Assembly (NCBI GenBank): GCA_008360955.1
Contig: LUCM01002273.1
Location: 101,928-165,927, forward strand
DNA length: 64,000 nucleotides
Direction: 5' to 3'
Source of the DNA: Fasciolopsis buskii
Lineage: Eukaryota; Platyhelminthes; Trematoda; Plagiorchiida; Fasciolidae
How positions within the stretch are numbered: position 1 is the stretch's first letter; every line of letters starts with the position of its first letter. This document shows positions 14,800-63,436 of this stretch, piece after piece. The notes below the pieces were generated by a model. It saw only the letters and a list, made by a program, of their open reading frames with translations, searched no databases and was not told the DNA's origin. The position numbers and the translations under genes are program-made.

Positions 14800-16720
14800 C
14801 TGTGGCTTCTTAATGCAACACGGTTGACCCCGTTCTTAGGAGTATTACTATATCGCCAACCTCGGAGAGAACCGGCCGAAGGACACATGCCTCATTTAAT
14901 AAAAACTTATCCCAGGGAGGTAGATTCCTGTGGTGGTGATAGTAGTAGTAGTAGTAGTAGTAATAGCAGTAGTGGTGGTAGCAGTGAAAGTCGTTATAAC
15001 CTCAGAAAGGGGCGGCAGTGCAAACCCTAAATGGACTGGGCCGGTGGAGGCATTCCTCAAGATAAAGTGGATTATTTAAAGGTGGAAAGTAGTTGTGAGT
15101 GGCGGAGGAGAACGATGAGGTATGCGGATGGGTGGAATTTTATTGGCGTTGGGGGAGAAATTGTGTGGATTAGGTGGAGCAAGTTCTCGTTGAGCCAAAG
15201 AAGACGACTGGATACTCAAAAGGGACAGCGGTCTTGTGATTGGTGAGTTTATGAAGGTATTACAAATGATAGGAAAAGGGTAATAGTTGTCATTTTTTCA
15301 ATAATGGTTAAAGCGTAAAGAGCGGGGCCACAGTTAACAGTGGGCGGCCCATGGGGATGGTAGTTAGATGAGGCATTTAAGAAGAGGCTGAGGTGGTGGA
15401 CTTTGGTCTGGTAAAGTCTGGTATTAAATTGCTAATCTAGAATCGGCTAGGTTGGAGGCACAAGAACATTCTCTCTAGGTATTTTAGCGGCAGATTGGTG
15501 AAACTTGCCCTTTTCTGAATAACCAGTTTCGCTGTTTACCGAAGCGAAAACCATTTTGGAAACAGCAGCTGCCCTGACGGAGATAACGTTAGCAGTTTTT
15601 AAATGTAGCTGGGGCATTTTGGTATACATATGTCTCTAAAAACGGCTCAAAACTCCACTTCCAGGAATTCGAAGAGGGTTGGATAAACTCCAGATGGATT
15701 GCGTGCTCGTAGGGTTGAGGAGTAGGTGGCCTGCAGCTTTGGAAGGGTAAACATGAGAGTCATATGAAAAGAACTTTCTGTGAATCAGGTAGGGGCTGCC
15801 ATTGGAGAAGCATGAAGGGAAGCCAGAGTATTGCGCGGGTTGGGAGTAGCCCGCATCAGGAGGTTTGTGGCTATGCTCCGCGAATCTGATACCTAAAGTT
15901 GGGGCACTGGGTTGGGAGTCTCGTTCACTGTTCCAGTATTGTAGTTAGTGGATTCGCTTAGGTCATTCATATGATGATGCGGAAGTCATCACTTTCATTG
16001 TCCTCCCCCTTTACCTTTAGTGGTAGCGTCAGTTGGAGGAGACGTGAGTTGCTGGCAACTGGATGCTCCCTAGTCGATCGCTGCTTCATGTGTTGTTGGA
16101 GTTCTAGGCTCCGGTGAGGGAAAATTATCCAAAGCACTCCGAGGTGGAGGGTTAGAGGGTTCATTGGAATGCTCACAAACAGTTGTTGCTGGTTCGATTC
16201 TCGAGTTTCGATTCGTTTCTATTTACGATGAAATTTCCGAAAACATTTAAACATTATTGAGTTGAGTAACTTGGGCAATTACCACAAATCTGCTGATAAG
16301 CTGTCTGACTGCCGGCTCCTCACTAAATCAAGGAAGAAAAAGATATTCTTAGGGCTGCGATTTTTCTGCATCCTGATAAAATAACGCCAGTGGATCTGCA
16401 TATATCTTGCATATAATATGCAAAGTTTAACCCTTTCGAATGGCAGACGACGTGAAAAGCCAAACACTACAGCACTTTTAGCGGCAGTAACGCGTTTGCG
16501 TGGTTCTGTGGCATAGAATCTGAACAGCGAAGTTCTATTTCGAAATGTTGACGAAGAGGGTTATTTCCACTCTCCAAGATGATGAGAATTTGAGATACCC
16601 ATAGCGCGATACCTTTCATTGATTGAACGTGATTTTTGAGAATGATATCTTTTCTTTCTTGGTCAATATCCTTCCTGATGGCTACGGCGCGAATATTGCC
16701 CAGAGCCACCTATATGGGAG
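14800..16720 (-). pseudogene. Detached LINE ORF1 (same family as 2-6.7 kb element)
   Basis: At 16,270-16,500 the minus strand reads RKRVTAAKSAVVF, then LPFERVKLCILYARYM. This aligns with RKSIAAAKNAVLF and LPPEMVKSCILNACGM in the ORF1 at 6,129-6,677. A proline-rich stretch follows, as in that copy (frame at 15,967-16,176). I found no endonuclease or RT downstream of it on the minus strand, so this copy is broken or rearranged after ORF1. Frames at 16,467-16,709 and 16,279-16,467 overlap the domain and are separated by a frame change. Its function as an RNA-binding ORF1p is by family knowledge only. Confidence 0.65.
14931..14986. repeat. AGT/GGT trinucleotide microsatellite
   Basis: An imperfect GTGGTGGTGATAGTAGTAG... 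run of about 56 bases. In the plus frame it codes for serine with glycine, inside an 84-codon frame (14,776-15,030), but nothing else suggests that frame is a gene. Confidence 0.9.
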
Positions 16721-30879: not shown

Positions 30880-32700
30880 TAAATAAAACGTGCAACAGTA
30901 TAAGGATATCTGCGACAGAATGACTGCTGGAGGGATGTCGTTTGATGCAATCTGTAATGGAGATTCATCTTGGATAGCAATGCTTCAATATAACGTAGAA
31001 AAAATAACAAATCGTGGAATACGCAGGGGAGATTGCCGAAATCACCGATGAAGCATCGCGGTGAACAGCAAAATCGTTATCTTTGTTCTATTTATCTTTC
31101 CGACAGCGGACTATTTCTCCATAATTTTCCCGCAACGACACTGAATTTGGTCGTCGTTTAGTTTCCGCCCGATACATTCAACTTTCTCTGTTTCCCCTCG
31201 CGGTTTTAGCTTTAGATTTTTTTCGGACACTGGGTGTAGTCACTGACAACCCTGAATTAAGGGAGTTTGTTGTGTTATGGTCCGCTTTCACTTTATCGCC
31301 CACGTTAGTTGACCATAGACGTTTAGTTGTTCTACTTTGATGTTCGCCGTCACGCCCAGGAAAGTTTTTGTTTGGCCTAATCAGGCATGCAGAATCCTTT
31401 GCATTTGCTTAAATCACCAAATAGGTACTTTGTATTAACCCGCTATTCATCAAGTTCTCACTTGCGGAAAACTTTGTGCTATTCTTGTCTAATTTTGGCT
31501 GGATGGTGACTGAGGCCCATTGTCAAAGATATGACTGCTGTGCACATAACTTCCGACCCTACAATAGCGTCACAGAACATGCGAACCAATCTTGTCTCCT
31601 TTCGGGTTTTGCAGCAAGCTGGCCTATGTGTTGTTTTCAGGTTTCAAGGCGCTGTCCAGGGCATGTGAAATGTATCCTTGGTCTAATCGGGTTGCGAGTC
31701 ACTGATCGACTTCACCCAGACCAAGAGTGACATACTTGTTCGTTATACCTGGCATAATAATGACATTATCCCCTGTCATGGGGGGAAACAGTATATTTAC
31801 TAATGTTGGCCGAAGGTTGTTTGTGCGTACATTCTTAAATATGACTGTTGTGATACGTGACCTGGGTAAGGAGCCGCCAGCTTTGAGTAGTTTGGCCATT
31901 GCTGCGGCCTTGTTACTGAAGCACGACGTTTAAAGTTTTTTGATATTTCGAGGCGAATTTAAAAGGGTCTTAATGTTGGTAGGCACAAGGTTCATTTTCA
32001 ATGTCAAGACAAATAATTTCGCTTGTTTAAATCTGGTATTCATTAAACAATACCCCCTTTAAAGGGGGTCCAGGGCGCCCAACGTCTTTGGGCTTGTGCC
32101 ACGCTGGGTTGAGGTGATTAAACCAGAGCAGTGCCCTGCGGTCGCGTGGAACTGTTTTGAGGCCAATTCAGGATCCATCGATGAAAGAAACTACTCCAAT
32201 TTTGGCTGACAAATAACGAAGAGTCAGTCCCACGAGACACTGCGGTATGGACTGATGAAAGGTAGGGGAAAATAACTGGCGGGCAAGCAAACTCTTACAG
32301 TCGCTCCGGGAGGTATCCCACTTGAACTATTTTTTGTTTATGGGCTCGTTCGCCTATGTTCAGGATGGTATCAAGAATGCTGTTACCGCTTTCGGGTAAT
32401 TCAACATGTCGTGTCTCCCCGTCCATTTGTTTTCCGGAGAGAAACATGGATCAGTTCGCTTCACAGGACTCGCTGCTTGAGCCAGAAACGGCGGCCCAGC
32501 TTCCTGCACGGATGAGCAGCAGCATTCCACCGCGATTCTACCGAAGATCCTCTTTTACAGGTTGGGGTGGCAATTTTAGAGGGTACCTTAGGAACGCTTC
32601 CGGAATAGCAAACTCAGAAGCTGTGGGCCGAAATATTGTAAACGTCAACTGCAAACGGGCCGCGGCAACAACTGCTTCGCCATCTCAAATTAATACTGAA
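30880..32700. other. No recognisable gene; one 18-bp palindrome
   Basis: No domain is readable. A perfect 18-bp palindrome, ACCCCCTTTAAAGGGGGT, lies at 32,052-32,069. A 124-codon plus frame at 32,356-32,730 abuts the tail of the next minus-strand LINE and is probably in its 3' untranslated region or is chance. Confidence 0.4.
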
Positions 32701-32729
32701 TTGGAAACAGAAAGAAAGTGTTCTGCTTG

Positions 32730-34310
32730 AGGGATACAGGGTCGCCCTCTGTTTTGGGGAATATGCGTGAGTATGGTCCGAATGAGAAACAGTCCCAGGT
32801 AAATTTGGGAAACAACGTCTGCCACGCTTTCTTCAAGCGGGCTCTAAACTTCGCAACAATGATAGCAGATACGGCACCCTTCGGTAGTTTGTCCCATGCG
32901 CTTAACTTTTGGAGTGAGAAGAACGTGGTCCCGATATTTTTCGGGGCCCTGATCTTGTTAAACCTCGTGCTGTGGCCTCTTATAGAAGGATTTTCATGGG
33001 GACTAAACAGCAAACTGGCCGTCCTTGACTGGCTCCGCAATACCTCGAGTCTAACGAAGCCTTTGGTTCGTACTTGGTATACCGAGTGTAAGTATAAAGA
33101 TCCTAACCCGTCATTATAAGTCAGTCCTTTGGTTCTGGGATCGTCCTTGTGAGGCACCGCCGGACTTCTTCTAACAATTGTTTATCCCTGACCAAAGCAG
33201 GAGCTCGTGAATTATTGATTATTCTAAATGAAGGCTTGGCACAATGGCATGGTAACTTCGGCGTCCCTGTAATGCACTACTCGTCGGAGTTGGTGCAAAA
33301 AGGCCGGCCGCCGCTGCATAGGGATTTGATGCTCGGAAGACTTATGAGTAATTGTTCCCAAAACCATTCGGCTCTTTTACCCTATGGACATCCTAAGGGT
33401 TGCGGGGCAAATTCGCCCGGTGGCTCTCTTCCTGAGCGGCCGAACGCACACACTTCCATACGCCCAGTAGCACCTCCACCTAAATTATCGGGGAAATGTG
33501 TTGTCCAGAGCCGTCTTCACTGTTTTCCGCGGGATTATCAAAAACGTCCGCATCGTCAACTAACAAAAATGGACGGATTTGACTTCCGCCTTAGGGTAAC
33601 TGATGAACACCAAGAACAGCAACGGTCCCAATGCCGAATCCTGGGGCGCCTCACCGCAGACAGAAAAGACCGTGCTACATCTACCGTAACATGGCGAAGA
33701 TAGTCCGCAACCGACCTCGTCGCGGGGTGAGCTACACTTGGAGGCCCCAGTTTTTACGGCAGCAACCTGGGGTTCACGGGTTCGAAGTTCTAAAAATCTA
33801 CGTAGCATTCGCTGACCGCATCCTCACATCCATTCGGGCAATCACGTCGTCCAGGAATGCAAACGGAGTTGTCGGATACGGTTTGCCATTGAAAAATTGT
33901 TACCTCGAGTTAAGAAGCTCGGTCCCAGTTGGAATGCCCCGATGTATAACCTTCAGTCCTACTGCGAAAAGATTCACTGAAGTAGGTTGCTTTTGCGACC
34001 TTTGCTCCCTTCTTCGTAGATCGGCACCACCCACTTCATCATTGAGCTGTCGAATATCCCTCACAGCTAGCGACAGATCAGGCAGATCCGTTAGACTAAG
34101 AGCAACTGCGTGTGTTGGCAATTTTAGAATGGCCGAATTTGTACTGGTGGCTGCTGAAGCTTTGATTTCTTAGTCCCCGTATTATCGATGTTACTTGCAG
34201 TGTTTCAACTAATGGATCTGTCACTCTTTGCGCTATGGGATTTATGATAATACCTAGCTTGATGGTGCAGTCATGAACGCACACCGACGTGCGGTATTTC
34301 AGAAGCACTC
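32730..34310 (-). mobile_element. LINE remnant: reverse transcriptase and C-terminal tail
   Basis: Minus-strand order: RT fingers (34,096-34,308) with SFSSHQYKFGHSK; motif B and beyond (33,560-33,808) with CGEAPQDSALGPLLFLVFI (canonical SGVPQGSVLGPLLFLLYIND); motif C near 33,552-33,557 reading LLVDDAD, with both aspartates kept; and the tail (32,690-33,157) with RGHSTRFNKIRAPKN, TTFFSLQKLSAWDKLPKGAVSA and VAKFRARL. This is the classic LINE end (RGHxxKLxxxxxxxxxRxxFFSxRVxxxWNxLPxxVVxAxSxxxFKxxL). No endonuclease is readable upstream at 34.3-35.9 kb. It is 5' truncated or decayed. The family differs from the 2-6.7 kb LINE. Confidence 0.8.
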
Positions 34311-34314
34311 ACAT

Positions 34315-35910
34315 CTCATGTTCTGCTTTTGCTGCTTGATTGTACTTCTCGGTAAGTACACTGCACGCTATGACCGCAGGTTTCTCATTAAAGTCGGCAT
34401 AGTTTAGGTAGGTATTTGGATTCCTTTTTGCCTTCTGAGTGGGGTGTATTTCGTACTGACCCCGGTGCCCCTTTGAGTCATTGTGGCCACTTCATAACCT
34501 CGCTGCGCCGCACGTGCCCCTGTAATTCTCAGCATCCCCACCACGTTTGTCGTTTCTTCTGCCGTGTTTTTCTGACCAGCCCCTCCAATAAATTTGGTCT
34601 ACTCCTCGACCTACCATTTTGGGCTAGATGGGCCATCTACCTACCAAATAGGGAAGAAAGCGATGGCAGTAGTCCAATCTCAGAATCTCAGGTGGTGTTT
34701 GAGGTAAACACACTCAGAGGTGAGCAAGACTTGGGAACTTTAAAGATAGCCTACCGGACCGTGAGGAATGGGCGCATTCCGGGGTCGGTGACTCTTGGTA
34801 AAGACGGAATCTTAGATGAAGGGGCCACAGGGTTTCCATAGATCAGGGGAATGATTAGGCCCGTAAAATGCACTTTGTTCTTAGTATGGCTTGGCAGGGG
34901 CACTAACCAACGCCGTCAAGTGGCTAAAAGGCAATGCTGGGCTGGAACCTGGTCACTAAGGAAGGGAGATTAGCTGAATCATCTAATAAAGCTGCTCAGA
35001 CGAGCGGAGAATTGCGCCAGAATGTAGTTGATACACTAAGGCCGCTAAGAACACCAACTCATGATCCGGCCAGCAAAGTGGGAACCCGACTCAAAGCAAT
35101 CCCAGACTAGATCCGGATGAACATGGGAGCCGTAGATGCCGGAATGATTTCTTGACAGCAGCGGGGTCACTGAGCAGAAATTTGCGAAGAATAGATGAGG
35201 CTGACTGTGTAGCACTAACATAATCTTGGCTTTATGACAATGCATAATTGGATCTATTATGCCAGCGAGGCTAAAGCACATCCGTTTGGGACAAGGAAGA
35301 CAGCATGATAGGAGTATCAGTGATTTGGAGAAACTCACTTCAACTCTGCATGCACTCAGTCAGTTCCAGCTATGGTCACCCTAAGTAGACGAAAAATAGG
35401 CGCGCTTTGTGTCCACTGGAAGCCCGCAAAACCATCGGGGGAGAGCGACCAAATCCCAGACCACCTAATGAGAAGTATCATGACCGGATAACGTGATAAT
35501 GTCGGGGCTCTTATTACTCACAAGGTCGACTGAAGTACGGGGCTGGCTAGTGGGGCAAACTAAGGCTCTGAATGCCTGATTTTTCGCAGCAGAGATCTAG
35601 TTTGCACCATATCATTCAGTCAATGAGGTGTAAGGAAGGTCATGCATCCTCCGCTTTGGACCACCCAATGACGGACTTCGAGTCCGACTTCACCTAAATC
35701 AGAGGTTTCATCGAACAAACCCACAGATCTACACCACAAGTTTTCAATTGAACTTTTATAGGCAGTTGTTCTGTAACGCGTACTTTACATCGCCTGTAAT
35801 TTCTTGCTTTTGAAATTCATCAGGGTATTTCACTGAAAGCTGTAGGCGGAGAAGAACGTGTCCTTCTGCGAGCGATTCAATGAGTCACTCAACAAGTTGT
35901 CTAATAAGAA
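34315..35910. other. No recognisable gene
   Basis: This lies between a LINE RT remnant and the left repeat of the Gypsy element. Frames at 34,416-34,841 (plus, 141 codons) and 35,045-35,338 (minus) match nothing I know. It could contain the lost 5' half of the LINE to its left, but no endonuclease signature is visible. Confidence 0.4.
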
Positions 35911-35913
35911 GGG

Positions 35914-36097
35914 CACCTCCTCTGTGTGTTCGATCAGCGTTCGTTGGATGCGAATATGAGAATAAGGCTAACGTGGTGTCAACTGCGCATATTTGGAATT
36001 GGACCACTTACAGGGAACAGGCTGTGAAATGCACCCAGGAATTGTGTCGTAATTTGCGCGTGTGGTCACTGCATGCGCGAAACGCACAATCAAACAG
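35914..36097 (-). repeat. Left 184-bp direct repeat, candidate 3' LTR
   Basis: I compared this base by base with 41,709-41,892 and found no difference over 184 bp. Just right of the core, ATGGCCGGGAGTTGGTT resembles ATGACCGAGAGGTGATT beside the other copy after a 3-base offset, and a TAAGA string sits just left of both. The true repeats may therefore be some 20-25 bp longer with diverged edges. There is no clean TG...CA end at the core borders. The plus strand of the core is open for 61 codons in both copies. Confidence 0.75.
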
Positions 36098-36739
36098 GAA
36101 ATGGCCGGGAGTTGGTTGAATCCTTGCGTAGACCGACCCTACCGACGAGACCCTCCATTAGAAGGGCTTAGGTTACTTTTGTGTGTAGTAAATGGCATGT
36201 TTTACGTCCGTGTCATGGGAAACAGGCAGCAAGGTGAATGTCAGAGGAAAAAAGAAACCTCTCAACGATGAGAAGGCTTAGATACAAAAATTAGGGGACT
36301 GGCGGCTGGCACTGGAAGTGAGATACTTAGGAGCTGCTGTAGCTGGCTACCCAACCCCAAACCCCCATAGGCTTTTCGCGGGACGTAGAATTTTTTATTG
36401 CTAAGGCGATTATTTTAGTGGAGTTTATTCTCCACTTGCCCCAGTGAATGAGCTAGAACAAACGGTATTATTGGATAGAGGTGTGGGGCGATCCTTGGAC
36501 TTGTGCTCCTGTGATGCTTTAGTGTCACTGTTCCAATTTGTTTCACTTTAGGCGTCAGTATGAAATATGAAGGGTGCCAACAGGGAACTTGTTTCTGCTG
36601 CGAAGCACTTGCATGCGACCTTTAAGATTTGGATTTACAAACACACGGTCATGTTTCGTTCACGGGCCGCCGGTAGGTGCAACTTACGCATCGGTTATGT
36701 TAACCTGGCGGCGTAGTCAGCATAAGCGTAATAAACTAG
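36098..36739 (-). other. Gypsy 3' end between integrase and left repeat
   Basis: After the integrase core no clear C-terminal domain or polypurine tract can be read on the minus strand. VFVNPNLKG near 36,620 might be the VFVRxDxxRxPLxPxYxGP-type integrase end but is too changed to be sure. No PPT lies directly beside the left repeat. Confidence 0.4.
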
Positions 36740-37470
36740 CGCCTTTGGGGCTACCATGTCGCTGGGTAGGTAGAACGTTCAACCGGAGGTGAGTTCGGCT
36801 GTTGTAGCCTGGACGTCCGTTTTAAAGGCAGCACGGCAACCCAGTACGACTAATGGTGGTGCTTTATGCTAGTTGAGGTTAATATGGTCCGACAAAGCTG
36901 CTTTTGGCTGGCGGTGGAAGGGTTCGACGATGCTGCTTCCTGCGGAGCGATAGGCTGTGGTATCGGTTCGCCTGTTCTCCAAATGCTGAAGGCGGCTACA
37001 AAGACCGCCCTCCATATCTGAATCACGGTTGGTGGTAACTAGGGCTGGACATCCGACTGTGCTCTAGAGAGATTTGAGCTATGGCTTTTGTAGTGGCCTT
37101 TGGCAACGGTCCCACCACCGGCCATTTCACGAAATGATCTATGAAAATGAGTAAACAAATGCAGCTCATGGAGGGTGGCAAAGGACCTATTAAGTCGACA
37201 TGGACCATTTAAAAACAAGAATCCATAGCATGAAATGACCAAGTTGACTTGCGGTGTGCTTGTGGACCTTGGACCGCTGACGGGATGCAGCTGAGTCCGG
37301 ACGAGTACGTCACGGTTCATGTTGCACCAGATGTATTGGTCGGTAATGAGCCTGGGATAAGCGTTGATGCCTGAGTAAGAGACCCTGAAATTGTCAAAAA
37401 CGGTCCTCCTAAGAGCCTGCGGGACGACATATTTGGGATGCTCTTTGGAGAAATCACACAATGTCCTTCA
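36740..37470 (-). pseudogene. Gypsy integrase, central Asp changed to Asn
   Basis: From right to left: the pre-integrase HHCC region with VPQALRRTVFDNFRVSYSGI, RLITDQYIWCNMNRDV (canonical TRLIxxRYVWPNMxxDV); catalytic core start MVHVDLIGPLPPS at about 37,185-37,208 (first catalytic Asp kept) and FIDHFVKWP; then FGCPALVTTNRDSDMEGGL near 37,010-37,060, where canonical TDRGSQFE has the second catalytic Asp as Asn; then TTAYRSAGSSIVEPFHRQPKAAL near 36,930, with catalytic Glu kept. AFKTDVQATTAEL follows, like the A(L)KxDxxxSPAELVYG end. Stops and shifts break it. Confidence 0.85.
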
Positions 37471-37650
37471 GACAAAGGCGGTGACAGGTTACATCTCGAA
37501 TCTTCCATCTGTGAGTCATTTGTGCCGGCGCAATATCTTCCGTTGTGATTGGCTGTTTCCAACTTCTGAACAATCGACACGGGACAGCGCATCTGCGATC
37601 GGAATATCGACACCTGAGGTGCAACATACTTTTCTCGTAAATTGAGCAAT

Positions 37651-37874
37651 TTACTCTAGGCGCCCAGATTCCCTTGGGGAGTTTGGGTTTGTGGTAGCAT
37701 GGCGAATTGTTTTGTTATCTATGTAGACCATGAAATCACAACCTTCCAGAATATGTTTCAAATGTCGAATGCCCAGGTAAATTGCTAGAATTTCGTAACT
37801 GAAGGTGCCATACATGAACCCAGTGGGTTTCGATTCCTTTAAAAGAAAAGCCATAGATTCCCAAGATTTCATTC
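37651..37874 (-). pseudogene. Gypsy RNase H domain
   Basis: The frame carries YGTFSYEILAIYLGIRHLKHILEGCDFMVYIDNKTI, the canonical YSTFxRELLAIYxAIRHFRHxLEGRxFxVxTDHKPL pattern. The catalytic Glu of the REL motif is kept (YEIL), and the Asp of TDHK is kept as IDNK. RNase H removes the RNA strand after minus-strand synthesis. Then NSPRESGRLE matches xxPRExRQLD. The 73-codon frame is open. Confidence 0.85.
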
Positions 37875-38868
37875 GAGGCTACTTCAATATAGCACCTACT
37901 ATAGTGTCTGAGGCTAACAAAGCCATACTGCTGATAATTTGCTTCCCCTTCACCAACTTATCTCGTGGAATCCGTGAATGCCAATTTCTTAGCCTTACCT
38001 TTAAGTAGATCTGTTAGAGGTTGCATTAGCTGAGCAGATCGCGAAATAAAAGTCTACAAAAGCTCACTAATCGAACAACACTTGCAGCTGCTTGAATTAC
38101 ACAAGTCTCAGGTAGTCTAAAACAGCCTGCATATGCTCCGAAGGGGGTGCGATCTCCATGGATGAAACCTTGTGTCCTAAAATACTGATGGAATCTCTAT
38201 TCGCACTTTTCTACGACTACCGTGACTCCGTGTTGTCAGTCGGTCACAAAGGGTCCGCAGGTGTCTTAAATGTTTCGTTCGGTTACAGCTAGCAATAAAG
38301 ATGCCGTCCAGATAAACAAATGCAGAGTCTAATCGGCAGCAAACCATCTGATAAAGAGCTGAAGGGTTTGTGCCTCGTTGCTGAGTACGAACGACATCTT
38401 CAAAAACTCGAGCAGACCAAGAAGAGTGATCTCCACACTTTTGCGGATTTCAGCCTCAGTAGTTGTTATCTGATTTTACGCGCGCACTAAGTCGATGCCA
38501 CTAAAAATAGCCTTTTCAGCTAAACCTGCTTTGAGGCCTGCTGGTTGCGTGATGTGATACCTATCCAGAGTATTTCCTCCGTCGAATGAGTAGCAGTCTC
38601 TGCATGGCCGGCGATTCCTTCAGGACCATATCAGATGGGGATGCCCATAGACAGTTCGAGGGTCGGTTAATCCCTAGATTGACCATATGCTGGAATTCCA
38701 CCTTGCTTTGCTGAGTTTTTTCCACCGCTAATCCACAGGATTTAGAGTACGCTGATGGTTGCGATATGATGGACCAAGTCTGCTGATATCGGTGGTGAGC
38801 TGTTGCTGGGTCTGATTTCGGAAACTCACTAAAGAGCTCATCGAAATCGGGTCCTGTCACAGGAATTC
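37875..38868 (-). pseudogene. Gypsy reverse transcriptase, YLDD changed to YLDG
   Basis: The start (38,561-38,860) carries QSKVEFQHMVNLGINRPSNCLWASP, the usual AxxEFxxMLxLGIIRPSxSPWASP entry motif. Next come FSGIDLVRA (canonical FSKIDLVRAYHQI, motif A Asp kept), LLGLLEFLKMSFVLSNEAQTLQ (canonical TPFGLFEFLRMPFGLxNAAQTFQ) and AFVYLDGIFIAS at about 38,296-38,320, where the second catalytic Asp of YLDD is Gly. The connection to RNase H (SSMALLASDTIVGAIL) is readable at about 37,880-37,920. Frames change several times. Confidence 0.85.
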
Positions 38869-38869
38869 G

Positions 38870-39240
38870 TCAAAACGAGGCTGAAATGTCGCACTGCGTT
38901 TTTCATCCGACTATCACTTTCGATGTGGTTTGGTCTGTTATGTGTCTTCGGCTAGGGTCGACTATCAAACCATGGTTTTTGACCAAATCCAATTTGCTTG
39001 TTGCTTGTCGCACATGAGGGACGGCAAAAACCCATGGATAAGTTCGTCACAGCCCTAGATCCATTGTAAAAAGCTTTCTGCCGAAAGTTGGAATATGGAG
39101 ACCATTAGTAGCTTGTAGCGTCAAAGCCGACGGAACGCCCGTTGGCTAGAACGAAACCGGTGTGATTCTGACCTTGGATCCTTTGTCGACTAAGAAACAC
39201 ACCTCACTTGTCCGGTCTAGTACATACACTGGGCATCTAG
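38870..39240 (-). pseudogene. Gypsy aspartic protease, active site DTG changed to DKG
   Basis: The minus strand reads CFLVDKGSKVRITPVS at about 39,150-39,200, matching the canonical FLVDTGAxVSVxP of retroelement proteases, with the essential Thr as Lys (codons at about 39,179-39,187). It continues with LQATNGLHIPTFGRK, then YPWVFAVPHV, then NHGLIVDPSRR, matching LxAANGxxIxTYG, FxWxFxxADV and FGLLVDxxxxx. Two stops interrupt it. The protease normally cuts Gag-Pol into its parts. Confidence 0.8.
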
Positions 39241-39382
39241 GTAGTGGTGTACGGGCAAAGATGGTCACCATTACCTGCCGGTCTAAACGTTTCCCGAGAT
39301 AGTATGGAATTTGTGGTTTTGTTCACAATTTTGCACCTGAGGATTGAACCAGCGAAGGCAGTAGCGTAACCTGCGTATTGAT

Positions 39383-39950
39383 TTGGGTCTAGGAGATTTT
39401 TCGTGCATTGGTTACGGCTCGGACTTCATTGACGAAGGTTACTGGTGGTGGCCTCGTATTGCGCGACTATCTGCATCAAACGCCAAAACTTTCGGCACAA
39501 CATCTGGACGTCGGAGTTGTGGTGGCCGATCTCCGGTTGAAGGTCAGCAGCTTGGCTCAAAGGAGCGCAGTGGACGGGGAGGATTGCTCGTGGTGAAGGC
39601 CTGTGCCTGAGGGACGATTACCAGCGCATATTCTGAAGCTTTTTTTGCGGCTTCGGCACATTTTTCTAATCTCTGACCATGTATAAACATCGTCAAAGTG
39701 CTTTCCGCATGCTATGGCAAGCGTTGCAACCACAGTTGTCGCAGAACGGTGTCGTTCATGGAGTTCAGACCAACTAATGACCGCATTCTCCGTATAAGCT
39801 GAGAGGGGATAATGTCCCTTGACTGTATTCCTGGAAGAATTTGTTAGATGGGTTTTTCCTCGGACGTTGTCAGCAGCCGTACCACAGAACATGCTGAAAG
39901 TTCTGGTTCTAAGTTTGATGTTGACTAAATAAGAAACCAACAGCAACGAG
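39383..39950 (-). pseudogene. Gypsy gag remnant
   Basis: In minus frames I read QRLEKCAEAAKKASEYALV near 39,600-39,680, which resembles the end of the Gypsy gag core (LAxxADxI region), then proline-rich text. Near 39,330-39,400 there is RWFNPQVQNCEQNHKF followed by SGNV. This may be a decayed CHCC motif (CWYH...C...C, then GN) typical of CsRn1-clade gag, with Cys to Arg, His to Asn and the last Cys to His. Further upstream (40-41.7 kb) gag is unreadable. The gag call is mainly from position before the protease. Confidence 0.5.
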
Positions 39951-41683
39951 ACAAACCCTTAAGAGTGATGCTAGGGCCAGGGGCTTCATTAATCAATTGC
40001 CCTTCATCGGAGTCTTCTGAGCATAGTAATTCATTAAAAGTGGTATTTATCTTGTCCTTATATTGTCTTAGATGTCAAAGGTTTGTCCACTCCCTAGGTG
40101 GATGCAGATCCCAAATCCACTGGTATTTCGGGTTTTTTATCCCTAAACACCACGCTGTCATTGAAAAAGATAAACAATACCCATAAAAGCTTGACGAAAT
40201 ATCCGGTGCATCGTCCCCGGAGGAAAGAAGGCCACCTACTACATGTTCAAAAGGTTGTTCGAAAGCATCCGTCAAGTCAGAGTCGTTTGAAATATGACCA
40301 ATGCTAATCATGCGCCATCCACCAACCGCTCATTTCCTGGGTCAATGTATTGTAACCAGCGTCTCGCAGAGCTAAAGGTTCTTCGCGTACGGCAACTACT
40401 TTTTTCTTAATGCGTCTCCAGGCGGCAAATCTTGAATGACCGCGACCAAGGAGAAACCCTTGCGTAAATCTCGAGGATATTTGACCTGTTAAAGATCCAT
40501 AATGTAATACAAATTCTAAGTCTCTTGTTTCCCTTACTGTTTTCAGTAACTAAGTTCATGTCGCCAATATTTCTCACGTTACAGCATGACAATTGTTTGA
40601 CCGGTAAGATTCGAAGGTAATCTAATTACGTTTAGTTCAAAGGAAATGTACCTATCAGTTATTGATAATATCGAATGATAATGAAACATTAAGCAGAGGA
40701 GATGACAATCCATGAACAAGCTACGCAAATATTACGCACAAAGCAGAGGACCACGTCCCGCTGAAATGATATCACTCCCCTAGTTGTTGGCATAACTAAA
40801 GTGGAACTTACTGATGCAACTTCTAGGGTCAATCGACACTTCGGTTAGTCAAAATGAGCCAAGAACTGCGCGAAACGTAGAGAGACTCACAGTCAGTGAA
40901 CGATCACAATGGAGTCTCATGACAAGATGACCTTGACAATTAGACCCCACTCAAACCTCTGAAGAATCGTTGTCTAAGGAAAAAACATACACAAAGACAC
41001 TGCCACCATGTATGGAGCGCTTACGGAGGTTAATAATGTAATGTCATACAGAAGTCAATGCACGATTAGCCGTTTATCAGTAAGCCACAAAGAATGACTA
41101 TGGTCATTAAAAACAAATGATTAATTTTTCGCGGAGTTATGCTTTCGTCCAGAAAAAACTGACAGAAAACATCAAATTATGATTTTGTTGCCAAGTCTGA
41201 CGCGAAATTCTACAAATTTACAGCACCTAGAAAAACCGCCCTTAAGGGACCGTTTTGGGGACGTTTTAGCGCCCTTTGTGCTGACTGGGTGCACAATAGA
41301 AAACGTTGTAAGGATTCGAGGTAGTTGGGTCCATAATGAAATCGTGCATTTTGATAATGATGTTGTTTGGAGTCGCTAGCGATAGCATTTGAATTTCGAC
41401 TGCTGCCCCGTTATGTGCTCCTCTTCGACAAGCGATTCAAGGATAGCCACGAAAGCCTCAGGATCCTAAGAGATAAAGTCTGGTACCGTCATATGTGTTG
41501 CATTGCACCCCAGCTAACATTACTTCTTAGACTGTGTAATCATATCTAGAGAGTACTATGGTGACGAAAACAAAATATGATGTGAGTTAGATCTATATCT
41601 AATAGATCGCGATATGCAAGAAACGACTCCAAAAACGGTGGAAAAAGCGACAACAATAGTGAGAAGTGAGAAATACAAAGGAA

Positions 41684-41694
41684 CGGGTTCACCA
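41684..41694 (-). promoter_or_regulatory. Candidate primer binding site, tRNA-Trp-like
   Basis: The minus strand reads TGGTGAACCCG, matching 10 of 11 bases of TGGTGACCCCG, the complement of the tRNA-Trp 3' end used as primer by CsRn1-clade Gypsy elements. It begins 14 bp inside the right repeat, further than usual. The site is short, so chance is possible. Confidence 0.4.
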
Positions 41695-41708
41695 CTTTTT
41701 AAGATATA

Positions 41709-41892
41709 CACCTCCTCTGTGTGTTCGATCAGCGTTCGTTGGATGCGAATATGAGAATAAGGCTAACGTGGTGTCAACTGCGCATATTTGGAATTGGACC
41801 ACTTACAGGGAACAGGCTGTGAAATGCACCCAGGAATTGTGTCGTAATTTGCGCGTGTGGTCACTGCATGCGCGAAACGCACAATCAAACAG
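41709..41892 (-). repeat. Right 184-bp direct repeat, candidate 5' LTR
   Basis: Identical in all 184 positions to 35,914-36,097. A primer-site-like sequence lies 14 bp inside it on the minus strand (41,684-41,694). Outside it on the right no gene is recognisable. If LTRs, they are short for Gypsy but within reported ranges; if not, they are two copies of a young short repeat that happen to bracket the element. Confidence 0.75.
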
Positions 41893-44800
41893 ATGACCGA
41901 GAGGTGATTACCAATACAGCCTTTTTTGTGAAAATATCATTATTTCAGACGTTGTACTTTGTCTCTGTGACCGCGTGAATCACAGAAATCAAGTCTAATT
42001 GATACAAAACCATCCGCAAGCCTTATTGGATGTGCACTGCTGCTTCATCTCTAAAATAGTCGCATGGTTCGACGTACATTGGGCTACTTTTGCTGAACAG
42101 TACTTTTTCTGTGGTACTTTGAACAGTTCAACCTACTTGCAAATACCGCAACAATTTCTTTTGCAATAATTGTCATCATTGTCGAATGATAAACGCAGCT
42201 GCACACACTTTGAGCAGTCGATTTCACAAAATCCATCCGGTTAGTTAGGTAAACGTCCTCCTGGTATGTGGATTGGAAGGGGAGGGCCGCTCACGCGGAC
42301 AGCGAGATCTCCCGATCTTACCACGTCAGACTTCTTATGGAATAAACCAAAAAGCATGATCTGTGCACTCAGTTGCACAGCGTCGTCCGCCATTTCAAAA
42401 AGCATATCTCCTTGAGGACCTTTTCGGAAGAAAGGCCGGTAGCTACCGGCACTGGTTCACTTGCTGCGCTCCGGTGCTCAATGTCCCAATATCATTTCGA
42501 CTTCCTGAGAAGCGATGACCACAGTTCAGCTTAGCTCACTTGCCTGAGTAAGTGAAAACTGAGATAACCGTGTGTGAAATCCAAGTAAATCTTAAATCAC
42601 TTAGGTATCTCAGATCCAACTGGGCACCGGTGAGCTCCCACACGGTGACGTAACTCTGACTAAGCCGTGGACTATGGAGTTTGTGTACTGCGAGCAAGCG
42701 AAGTCATCATCTGTGCCTGTTTACTTTGGGGTGAAAGATAATTTCGTACTGCTCCTATTTCAGACCGCTTCAGTTATCTTGGCGCATCTGGTGTAGTGCT
42801 TTTATGGATTCCAATGGCAAGCTGAATGCTGAAAATATTTGACAAATCATTCGGAAAGAGCAGTTCTGATATTCGAAATCTGTCCTCTGTTGTGTGTGTA
42901 CTCGTGCTAGCGTGTATGTCTGAAAGAGATGGCTGTGGAGGAAGCTGCTCACGCCAATGGCCCAGATCTGTGCTAAGTTCCAGGGATTTTCGGGGGCCGC
43001 TAGTGGTCTGTGGAGGCACGAAACCCTTTAGGCCACACATCAGGAGATGACAGAAGTGAATACATGCAGCGTTAGCTGTGGACAAGGTCCGGCAATTCAA
43101 CAGTCTTGATAGCTTACTTCAAATCCTGAAGTTTCAGTCGCATTCACTAAGTGACTGTAATCAACTAAGCGTGAATAAATAGCAGTCGTCATTGTTTTGG
43201 TCGCTATAGTGTTTGACTAAGCCAGGTGGCGTTCACGATCCCGACTTATGCTGTCTCACTGGGGCAGTTTTCCTGTATACATAAAATGACACAACGGAAT
43301 ATGACACGAACGACATGAATGGGCTTGTGGCTCTGATACAAAAGAAATTAGCCGTTTCGCTACACAGATCTTCTTATCGAGAGCTCCGGATAGTCTGCGA
43401 CAAACAATGTCCACAAAAAGTCCTCTTTAAATGCCCAACTAATGCACAGTACATTCTTTTTTGCCATTATTTTCCTCTTTCGCTTCTCAAACTTTTCAAT
43501 ACTTTTTTCAATGAATCGATCAGGGTAGTCGCTTTGCCGAAACACCCCCGGAAAAAGCAAAGCCCCCATCTATAGTCTTCAGTGAAAATTTTTCTTTCAT
43601 CCATTGATTAATTTGTTTGTCAGATTTCATTTTATTTGTTGTCAAACTGTCGAAGTAAGTGCGCCAGGCAATCCACGTTCAATTTCATTTCAAGGATAAT
43701 TGTGCGAAGCCATCAGTCCAGTGATTTAGGCATCTAAGTATCCCATCCTGTCGCTTGCTTCCCTTCCCAGTGTGAAATGAATATTTCTGCGGGCTATGTT
43801 GAACATGGGTAGTATGTATGCAATATCAGCAACATCTGCCACACAAACGATACAGTCAATATAACGGTTATAGAGAGCAAAATGTTTAATCACTAGCCAT
43901 AATTGAGCGTTGTGAAGTGCTGCCATAAGGACGTAGTTGAAAAGGTGCCCCAGGTACAACCGCATTGTTTCCTCATCTGACAACCTGAGCTATGACCAAC
44001 ACAAATTATCAAATCCAGTAAATGGAATATAGTTTTGACCTCCTTTCAAGTTCAACTAGTCTTATGCACTGTCAAATTATTGTTGATTGTTGATCACATT
44101 ACAATTTTGACCAACCATAAAGAAGGCGCTATCCACTTACTGGGCGCAATAAATAAAACATTTACTGGTTCCCCTTAGTTTTTTCTCTTTAGTTTGTCTT
44201 TGAATCCATAAAAAGATATTCCTTCAATAAAACAAACCCTATTGAAAATATCAAAGCCAATGCATCAAGTCACGTTATTGGGCGTATGAATCGGACACGT
44301 GATCTCCCCTTTTGCGATATACGTCTTCCATAAAGTTGTGCTTACTTTACTCTGGATCGAGTGTGAAAGAAACAATTGGAAGCTGCCAAACGATAATCAG
44401 TGGCTGATAACCACCGGAAAAACGTCTAGTAGAAACAAGCATAACTTATTTGGTAGCAGGTTTTCATCGATTTGATGCTCAGTCCATCAAGCAGTCACAA
44501 TAATTTATCTAGATTTTCCATGAGTACAGGCCAAAAACGCATGCCAAGAACAACTAAGATCCTGGCATTGCCGAAATTCTCTTGTGAAAGATGGAGTTCA
44601 ATTAGATGTAATAAGCTAAGGAGGTCAAAGCACACATGTAGTTGCTAATAGAGATAAATACTGAAAGAAAACTGTATAAAAACAGATGGTGCAGATAAAC
44701 TACAGGGATTTTTATGAAGATCTTGAAAAGCGAACTGTATGAGACAAATAAGCCATTCTATGGGAAGGAGTAGAATTATCATCAACGGGTGACAGTGGAA

Positions 44801-52797: not shown

Positions 52798-53559
52798 CTG
52801 AAGGCGATAATGGAAATCCATGTAGAGGAAGAATCGTTGAGAAAACGAAAAAGAAGTAAAATCCCTCCCATGCGGCCTAGCTCTTAGAATGTAAGTATTT
52901 CTGAAAAGGTTGCGTTGATGAGCAACTTACCAAGATTTTAATTTGTAATATGACCTTTTGAGAGCTTGGAATTAGATACAGGTTGCATTCGACGAGCGAC
53001 AGATAAGAAGCCTGCCACGAAGAGTTGCGACTATTAATTCTCCCGGTAGCAGTTGGGGGAGATCTTTCTTAGCGTTAATACATTACAACTTTCCGTATTC
53101 CAACAGCGTGATGGCAATTTTCCATCTTCCCAGTGACTGTCTGAACGACAGCATTTTTGATGACACAAATTGCTCTTCATTAAAAGTTCACCCGCGAAGA
53201 TGACACGTACCTAATGTCAACCGTTCCATTTGACAGGATGGTCTACAATTCTGTGTCATCCTATTTCGTTACTTTGTTTTCGGATATTTGGTTCGATCAT
53301 GCTCTCCGTTCGACGCTACAATCGCTCGGAATTAGTTTTGTTCAAGGACCGTATCCTTTCTCAACACGGACTAGGATCACCCATTGTTGCACCTCAACGA
53401 TCTTCTAATCGATCTAGAAGAGGCACTCGTGCTGGCTGGCAGGCAGCCCCTAAATGCACCCTTCCAGCCAAGATCTCAATTCCGGCATTGTTCAGTACCA
53501 ACATCCGCTCTCCGTTTAAGAAAATGTCGAACTTGTCCCTTACACTTCAATCACCGATC

Positions 53560-54155
53560 CATGTTCACATGTGTGTCATCTGCATACAAGAATCATGGCT
53601 GAACCCGGATTTCGCTGATTCACTCGTGTCGATAGACAGCTTCAAACTCCATCGGCAGGACGGAGTTTCGAACAAGAGGAAGAATGGAGGCGGTGTCGCA
53701 ACATACATAAACCCCTTCTGGTCTGGCAAATCCGAAGTTGTTTATACGTACTCTCTCAATGGAATTGACTGTCTCGTGACACAGTGTCATCCTAGGTTTT
53801 CTCGTCATAACAGCACTATCATAAACAATTTATACATGGCCCGTTTAGCTCGCTACAAAATATCGCATCTTTTTTCGACTCTTTCCTAGTGTTCATTGTT
53901 CCCCTTCTTGAGGATAATCTGCATATTATTGTAGGTGATTTTAATCATGCATCTACCTCACCACTGACTGTGTTTGATTTGACTGATCTCTGCGTTTCTC
54001 CCAAAAGGGGCAATTCCATTTTAGATAGAGTTATTACCAACCACCCCGATTTATTTGCCCTGAAACTGCGTACTCCAATTTCAAGTAGCGATCATTGTTT
54101 GCCTTTGTTAAAGCCCAAGATATACTCTAGGTCAGCATTCGATTCCTTCAGCTGA
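53560..54155 (+). pseudogene. LINE endonuclease domain, catalytic motifs kept
   Basis: The frame 53,230-53,889 and, after a frameshift near 53,886, the frame 53,889-54,155 give a nearly complete APE domain. Motifs in order: CIQESWLNPDFADSLV (canonical xxTETWLxxxxxDxLV, catalytic Glu kept), NGGGVATYI (RGGGVAxYV), IIVGDFNHAS (GDFN kept), RGNSILDRVITN (RGxNxLDxVxTN) and ISSSDHCLPLL (SDH kept). Only the frameshift breaks it. Confidence 0.85.
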
Positions 54156-54293
54156 ACAAATCAAATCCGAGCTCGCCTCCGCAACCTTTCACGCAACAAC
54201 CTTATTCTTCTTCTTCAGAAATCCCTTCAATCGCATCTACCTGTTTCTCTTTTGAATCAATGCTCAACGACAATGTCAAACTATTCACATAGA

Positions 54294-55273
54294 CGGCCAA
54301 CGCAATCTTTGATATTTGCTGCCCCTCAGAAATACTATTCGTCTCAAATAGCCGTATCTCCACCCAGAAACTGAAATCTCTAAGACGATGCAAGGAGCAC
54401 TTCTACAAATCTCGTAATAACTCAAGCATGCGGTACGTTTCCAACCTAATAAAAGCGGAGATCCGACGCATCGAAATGACGTTCGCTAGCCAACTGTTGA
54501 GTGGTAACAACAATCGATTCCTATGGCAAGGCATTCGACTGTTGTATGGGAAGAAGAAGAAGCATACGAAAACTCCTGCGGATATCGACAACATCAATCG
54601 TGCTCTCACCTATCCTTTCAATCATAACCCGGTCATATTTGGTCTGGGTACTGATATGACAGTCACAAGTTCTTCTAGAGACAAGGTGCTCCATCTTCTA
54701 CGCACCACTAAAATTACCACAACGGTTGGTCCTGACAGTCAGTTCTCAGCTCTTTTAAGGCATGGTCCTGTGGCTCTGACCAATGCATTCACTTCTCTGA
54801 TTAGCTCATCATTAACCTCGTCTTCTATCCCTGAGTGTTGGAGACCCGTCACTATTACTCCCATCCCTAAATCTAACTATTCTGCTGCTTTAGCAAAACG
54901 TCTTCGCCCCATCGCCTTAACGTCTTCTGGTCTTAAACTGACGGAGACTGTCTTACTTAAGCGCCTGCGTTCTTCTATGTATCCTCCTGACGACCCATTT
55001 CAATTAGCCTATTAATCTAACTGGTCCAATTTGGACACTGTCGCCTCCCACATTCATCACATTTGTAAGTCCTTATACGCATCAGTGAAATCCGTGCGTC
55101 GCGTCTTTCTAGACTATTCGTCGGCATTTGGCTCAGTCCCACGGTCTCTTCTACTCCACAAACTGCAAACATTTGGTTGTCCCAGTTCTTTATTAGCATG
55201 GCTGTCTGATTACTTTATTAGCCGAACCCAGTGCACACGAATGGACGGTAAAGTTTTGTCCTTCGTTCAATGA
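54294..55273 (+). pseudogene. LINE reverse transcriptase, N-terminal half, motif C deleted
   Basis: One frame runs from about 54,294 to 55,273 with a single internal stop (55,013-55,015). It holds SLRRCKEHFYKSRN, VGPDSQFSALL, CWRPVTITPIPKS (canonical WKxAxVxPxPK), LRPIALTSSGLKLTE (YRPIALTSxxxKxxE) and VFLDYSSAFGSVPRSLLLHKL (motif A, first catalytic Asp kept; the second Asp of FDSV is Gly). It ends after RTQCTRMDGKV, just where GVPQGSVLGPLLF and FADD should follow; these are absent. Confidence 0.85.
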
Positions 55274-56316: not shown

Positions 56317-56528
56317 CAGTCACTCAGTCAATCACCCGGTCAGCATTGTCAGTCAATCACCAAGTCCATTCAATCGATCAGTCACCAAAGTCAGTCAACA
56401 ATGTCAGTCAGCCATCAATGTCAGTCAGTCAGCAATGTCATTCAGACAGTCAGTCACTCAATCAGTCAGTCATTCCCCAGTGTTAGTCAGTTAGTCAACA
56501 GATCAGTCACCCAATACTTAATCAGTCT
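56317..56528. repeat. CAGT-derived tandem repeat (about 210 bp)
   Basis: Imperfect CAGT/CAAT/CACT units run through the whole segment: CAGTCACTCAGTCAATCACC and so on. Two plus frames are open through it (56,232-56,486 and 56,305-56,532), reading SVSQ/ISQS-type repeats, because 4-base units shift phase; this is a byproduct of the repeat, not a gene. Confidence 0.9.
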
Positions 56529-62432: not shown

Positions 62433-63436
62433 CCTGGGTCACCACTCCGTGACAACGTCATTTGTATGTTCGAAGTCAGACGCGTTCATGTGTGAGCAAA
62501 TATCAGCACCGTTATCCTTACCTAATGATAGGATTATTTTCACTATCCCCTCAAGCAAAAAGTCAAAAAATAACCAGGGTACAGAGTTAACCTGAAAAAC
62601 ACTAATTATGATGACCGTTTGAGGTGAGAGATCGGTGAAATGAGAACGAAAATCAGTTTTCCTACGAGGACTGGGCTTACTCCGATAACCAAACCGTGGT
62701 AAACACAGACTGGAGTTCTTGAATAGTCTCCATTGCTTTGGATGGGGAAAGGACAGCAGAGTCTGGTGCTTTTCTAATATCCTGCGAAGTATGCTCCTCT
62801 GTGGAGGTCCACCTCAAAAGTTGAATCATGCGAAATGGATCACAGGACCATGTGAAGGGCTGACGCTACCGGGCAGTTATACTGAAGTTCGGTTCGTTCC
62901 ACTGGCACGTGATTTCTTTCCTCAGTTGACTCAAATAAAATTAAACAACCCATTTTCCACGAGGGGGCATTCTCTGACATTTTTTGAGACCACCAGATTT
63001 CGCGGCCCCTAAGCAAACCAGTGTAACGTTCATGTCTCCTTGCCATTACCTCATTTTCACTGATTATCATGAAAGTTAACTGGGGATAGTTAAGCATCAG
63101 ACTGCCTCAGAGTGTCAATATGAAAAGACTGAGAACATAATTAACACTATCTAAAATATGGGAGTGCCATAGTAGATCCGTGCCACCGAGCTGGCGGCTG
63201 ACCAACAGTGGCTAGATTTGGTCGCGATTCATTTCTGTTCTAATACCAACACCATGACGGCTTGACTACCGCTCAAAATACGGCATTGCACTTCGTTAAT
63301 AAAGTGACCACATCGACTGACTGCCCTATCAAAGCTTATTGTGGCGTGGTGGCAAGTGATTCGATATCTCTCCCACCAACCAAAGAAGCAAGCATTAAGA
63401 AAAATCTCGTTGCGGTGCTGCATTGCTTCTGAGTGT

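Follow-up and report, generated by a model that had tools for sequence, protein, structure and literature searches.

Identical 184-bp repeats around a broken Ty3/Gypsy element of Fasciolopsis buskii, read as possible homogenised middles of old long terminal repeats

The identity of the two long terminal repeats (LTRs) of an LTR element is the usual clock for dating it, and a 64,000-nucleotide stretch of the Fasciolopsis buskii genome (contig LUCM01002273.1, positions 101,928 to 165,927; hereafter the window, with coordinates counted from its first base) raises the question of how perfect repeats came to bracket the remains of a dead Ty3/Gypsy element. The two copies of the repeat, at 35914-36097 and 41709-41892, are direct repeats in which 184 of 184 bases are the same and which are bordered on both sides by unlike bases; the identity in every base that a sequence-only reading of this locus had claimed was borne out by a blastn self-comparison of the window (word size 11, E of at most 1e-5), in which this 184-bp core was the only repeated pair. 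An exact match of 184 bases is far beyond anything that chance could plausibly give, and with 0 differences in 184 positions the divergence of the core is below 1.6% (upper bound at 95%). In the output of a repeat finder this pair measured 193 nt, with 98% identity, because the program extended it leftward by 9 bases, 5 of which agree. Taken as LTRs, the two copies are 5.8 kb apart.

Between the copies lies a Gypsy body that has decayed. All of its stop-free pieces were short, on both strands. Fourteen minus-strand pieces of the body were scanned against Pfam, with one clear match, one weak match (E 0.057), one meaningless match (E 0.078) and 11 pieces without a match. The clear match was an RNase H piece of a broken pol (37654-37878, minus strand; PF17917, E 7.1e-8; PF17919, E 8.7e-4), and the weak one, below the curated cut-off, was a similarity to the integrase zinc-binding domain (PF17921) in a piece at 37042-37467 (minus strand). 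Two further minus-strand pieces, neither recognised by Pfam, were assigned by eye from their translations: a reverse transcriptase (RT) piece at 38180-38449, which carries YLDG in place of F/Y-X-D-D, and a protease piece at 39149-39322, which carries VDKG in place of D-T/S-G (reference motifs as given in PMC2582038). Catalytic residues had been claimed as lost from three domains; the losses in protease and RT can be read in this way, and a third loss could not be established. Pol domains of a single strand sense thus lie between the two direct repeats, as in a Ty3/Gypsy remnant, with RNase H clear, integrase weak, and RT and protease seen by eye. Since the broken pol runs on the minus strand, we read the right copy as the 5' side of the element and the left copy as its 3' side, the orientation being taken from the RNase H match. 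Pfam gave no Gypsy match in 6 pieces outside the repeats or in the 20 other longest pieces of the window, the shorter outside pieces not being scanned; therefore, nothing seen shows the element extending past the repeats. The RNase H piece had no relative in viral contigs and returned a single protein from the protein collection, which was marked as the window's own. Among solved structures, neither the RT piece nor the RNase H piece found a meaningful match (best E values of 1.1 and 0.17, to unrelated proteins).

An indication that the repeats belong to this element came from a primer-binding-site-like sequence, TGGTGAACCCGT, at 41683-41694 on the minus strand; read along the element, it follows the right core after 14 nt. 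According to PMC2582038, elements of the CsRn1 clade have the primer site TGGTGA[G/C]CCCG[T/A], complementary to tRNA-Trp, and the sequence found here agrees with that consensus at 11 of 12 positions. It was the sole match with at most one mismatch in the window. Such matches are expected at a mean of 0.66 per window over both strands, and at least one occurred somewhere in 46 of 100 shuffled windows; thus, it is the position of the site that counts, and in a given 30-nt stretch of one strand the chance of a match is about 1.5e-4, a figure that makes no correction for the choice among tRNAs. An 11-mer query matched the same site and one other, at 62434. A primer site just inside the 5' LTR is what a Ty3/Gypsy element should have, and whether this one directly adjoins the LTR hinges on the position of the LTR end. 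Its place 14 nt inside the right copy favours the view that the repeats are parts of the element's own LTRs.

We consider it about an even chance (probability near 0.5) that the repeats are the middles of old LTRs of a dead Ty3/Gypsy element which have been homogenised by gene conversion, because the orientation, the primer site 14 nt inside one copy and the missing target duplication fit such a history. The element would be CsRn1-like, judged by its primer site only. It would have inserted on the minus strand and then decayed; later, non-reciprocal homologous repair (intra-element gene conversion) would have replaced the central 184 bp of one LTR with those of the other, possibly more than once, and meanwhile the edges of the LTRs and the internal region would have kept diverging. 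The right core (41709-41892, minus strand) is accordingly read as the putative middle of the 5' LTR and the left core (35914-36097, minus strand) as that of the 3' LTR. We infer the divergence of the LTR edges, and likewise the homogenisation, its direction and its date. Among the explanations that the sequence-only reading had offered, this one is the best supported by orientation, primer site and lack of a target duplication, and the support that it receives is partial.

Several observations weigh against it, and the first concerns the flanks of the core, which had been described as similar but diverged. On one side, the 17 nt before the right core (41893-41909, minus strand) and a 17-mer beside the left core (36101-36117, minus strand), offset by 3 nt, share 13 of 17 bases and may be the diverged starts of the 5' and the 3' LTR, respectively. 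The likeness of these 17-mers counts in favour of the conversion reading at a length of 25 bp, where 10 of 2000 random window pairs had as high a local score, but it is marginal, since 80 of 2000 did at 40 bp and 339 of 2000 at 60 bp. When the alignment was anchored at the core edge and extended from there, the likeness was not significant, with 129 of 1500 random pairs (gap -2) and 311 of 1500 (gap -1) as good. On the other side, the 14 nt that separate the primer site from the right core (41695-41708, minus strand), a possible diverged end of the 5' LTR, equal the corresponding 14 nt after the left core (35900-35913, minus strand; possible diverged end of the 3' LTR) in register at 6 of 14 positions. 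This side had no excess similarity, with 997 of 2000 random pairs as good at 25 bp and 668 and 462 of 1500 as good when anchored. The description of the flanks thus holds, marginally, on one side of the core and not on the other, and we rejected the 17-bp similarity as proof of a diverged LTR. Target duplications gave no help in placing an LTR boundary, as 10 four-base matches were found among 56 × 56 boundary pairs and about 12 were expected. No clear polypurine tract was seen when the 100 nt preceding the left copy were scanned; the best 12-mers there contained 8 or 9 purines and started 30 to 90 nt from the core. No further genomic copy of the core was seen either, in collections that possibly omit the window's own genome. 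Finally, gene conversion would be inefficient if its partners differed as much as the flanks do, so on this reading the two cores must have remained similar all along.

If the flanks are homologous, the contrast between them and the core is strong. Given homology of the 17-mer, 4 mismatches over 201 positions would leave a clean run of 184 bp at one end with a probability of 3.6e-5 by formula, and a clean run of that length appeared at either end in 47 of 200,000 simulations; with the other flank added (12 mismatches in 215 positions), it appeared in 0 of 200,000. The core would then be more alike than the rest of the LTR pair, a conclusion as strong as the flank homology on which it is based, which is itself marginal. 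If the LTR ends beside the primer site, its end has diverged and its middle is identical.

A target-site duplication is a hallmark of insertion and decays with age. No 4-bp duplication abuts the repeats when both ends are set at the core edges, and no match of 5 bases (3.1 expected) or of 6 occurred among the 56 × 56 pairs of boundaries tried near the outer core edges. It is therefore unlikely that a recent insertion ended at the core edges. This result bears on a different history, in which an element that was already dead moved recently in trans: a broken template would have been mobilised by the helper proteins of an intact relative, and reverse transcription would have made its LTRs, of about 183 to 184 bp, identical. 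Non-autonomous LTR elements are well known, and they resemble the present one in combining a broken coding region with identical LTRs; they differ from it in the target duplication expected of a recent insertion, which is missing here. Trans-mobilisation would account for the identity of the copies, and the core also begins with C-TGT on the minus strand and has a length within the 146 to 368 bp of CsRn1-clade LTRs, which start with TGT (five table rows of PMC2582038 for the lengths). However, the outer core edges lack the abutting 4-bp duplication, a test that would miss an element of chimeric or rearranged structure, the core ends in GTG and not in ACA, AAA or ATA, and the primer site would sit 14 nt from the LTR end. 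The missing duplication and the unlike 14 nt beside the core together argue against the recent insertion of an already dead copy, which we regard as unlikely, if still credible.

The exact identity amid diverged surroundings could also be explained without biology, by an error of assembly or gap filling that copied the sequence of one LTR into the other copy. The window contains 0 N, which does not exclude gap filling. An assembler would not normally collapse copies as unlike as the flanks are, and we find an error of this kind unlikely.

The sequence-only reading had further proposed two insertions of a young short repeat; such a repeat would measure about 184 bp, would have inserted twice independently and would have nothing to do with the Gypsy body. 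This origin would explain the exact identity, and the core is somewhat rich in CpG (observed/expected ratio 1.10; body, 0.88; window, 0.84), although as many CpG were counted in 239 of 3191 segments equal to it in length. It does not readily explain why both copies have the same orientation around one element and why a primer site stands 14 nt from one of them. Inverted termini or own target duplications, by which a short interspersed nuclear element (SINE) or a miniature inverted-repeat transposable element (MITE) would be recognised, were not found: the outer 20 nt of the core contained no exact inverted match of 6 to 8 nt, the left copy had no target duplication of its own, and the right copy had a single 4-mer, AGAT, attributable to chance among 324 boundary pairs. 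Additionally, a tRNA search on the core found none, no Rfam family reached its gathering score, and no third copy exists in the window. Outside it, a 20-mer from the core had 0 matches in the viral contigs collection, and among genome contigs, from which the window's own genome was possibly left out, it matched 3 bacterial records with only 20 to 21 nt in common, which we take as chance. The protein collection gave no candidate for a 61-residue stop-free frame that crosses the core and surely encodes no real protein. The proposal of a young short repeat thus gained no support from termini, duplications, tRNA or Rfam matches, and given also the orientation and the primer site we rejected it as the leading reading and consider it improbable.

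Selection might instead maintain both copies of the 184-bp core, if it served, say, as a promoter or a structural element. What speaks for this is only the contrast between the core and its surroundings. Selection rarely preserves every base, and the core showed no unusual folding on either strand (z -1.31 and +0.79) in addition to its lack of an Rfam match. It was therefore rejected as the leading reading, and we find it hardly credible. A related idea, in which repeated local conversion with sharp borders, or selection on the core, has long preserved the identity of the LTR cores, so that the 184-bp tract evolves in concert within an element that has otherwise decayed, appears quite improbable to us.

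Homogenisation of old LTRs by gene conversion has precedents. In a survey of plant LTR pairs, potential converted regions were predicted in 25%, with tracts mostly of 100 to 1000 bp, and in a study of human LTR elements the maximum lengths of the conversion tracts ranged from 14 to 450 bp with a mean of 99, the donors being other LTR elements and conversion being more frequent in cis at short distance (PMC7251063 and PMC4921805, respectively). A putative tract of 184 bp in LTRs 5.8 kb apart would fit both. The locus resembles the intra-element conversion of the plant survey in having an identical LTR tract of a few hundred base pairs that gives a young look to an element apparently older than itself; unlike that survey, ours concerns one locus, with flanks that are marginally alignable. 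In PMC2582038, the CsRn1-clade elements PwRn1 and AgCR share with the present one the tRNA-Trp primer site (11 of 12 positions), possibly the TGT start of the LTR, and an LTR length range that includes 184 bp. That source gives 4-bp target duplications for the clade, with LTRs running from TGT to AAA or ATA and those of most retrotransposons from TGT to ACA; the present element differs in having no such duplication, a core edge that does not end in AAA or ATA and a broken pol.

A dead body between identical LTR tracts illustrates how the LTR clock fails, as conversion can make old elements look young. Most likely the feature is an ordinary instance of a process already known, and a single case adds little to the published surveys unless repeated homogenisation with fixed borders is shown.

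Elsewhere in the window, a broken non-LTR retrotransposon (long interspersed nuclear element) lies at 53215-55012 on the plus strand. It includes an endonuclease piece at 53811-54152 (PF14529, E 9.6e-4; PF03372, E 1.2e-3) and an RT-like piece, recognised by eye, at 54293-55012, for which three relatives were found with 57 to 65% identity over 43 to 44% of the 240-residue query. Six overlapping stop-free frames of 134 to 198 codons, five on the plus strand and one on the minus strand, occupy 32326-34838; they had no Pfam match except a meaningless one, and amid them is the kilobase of the window that is richest in G+C (33001-34000, 50%). A small degenerate tandem array of GTCA-like units was found at 56378-56472, and an array of TAG triplets, of about 15 units with 81% matches, at 14940-14985.

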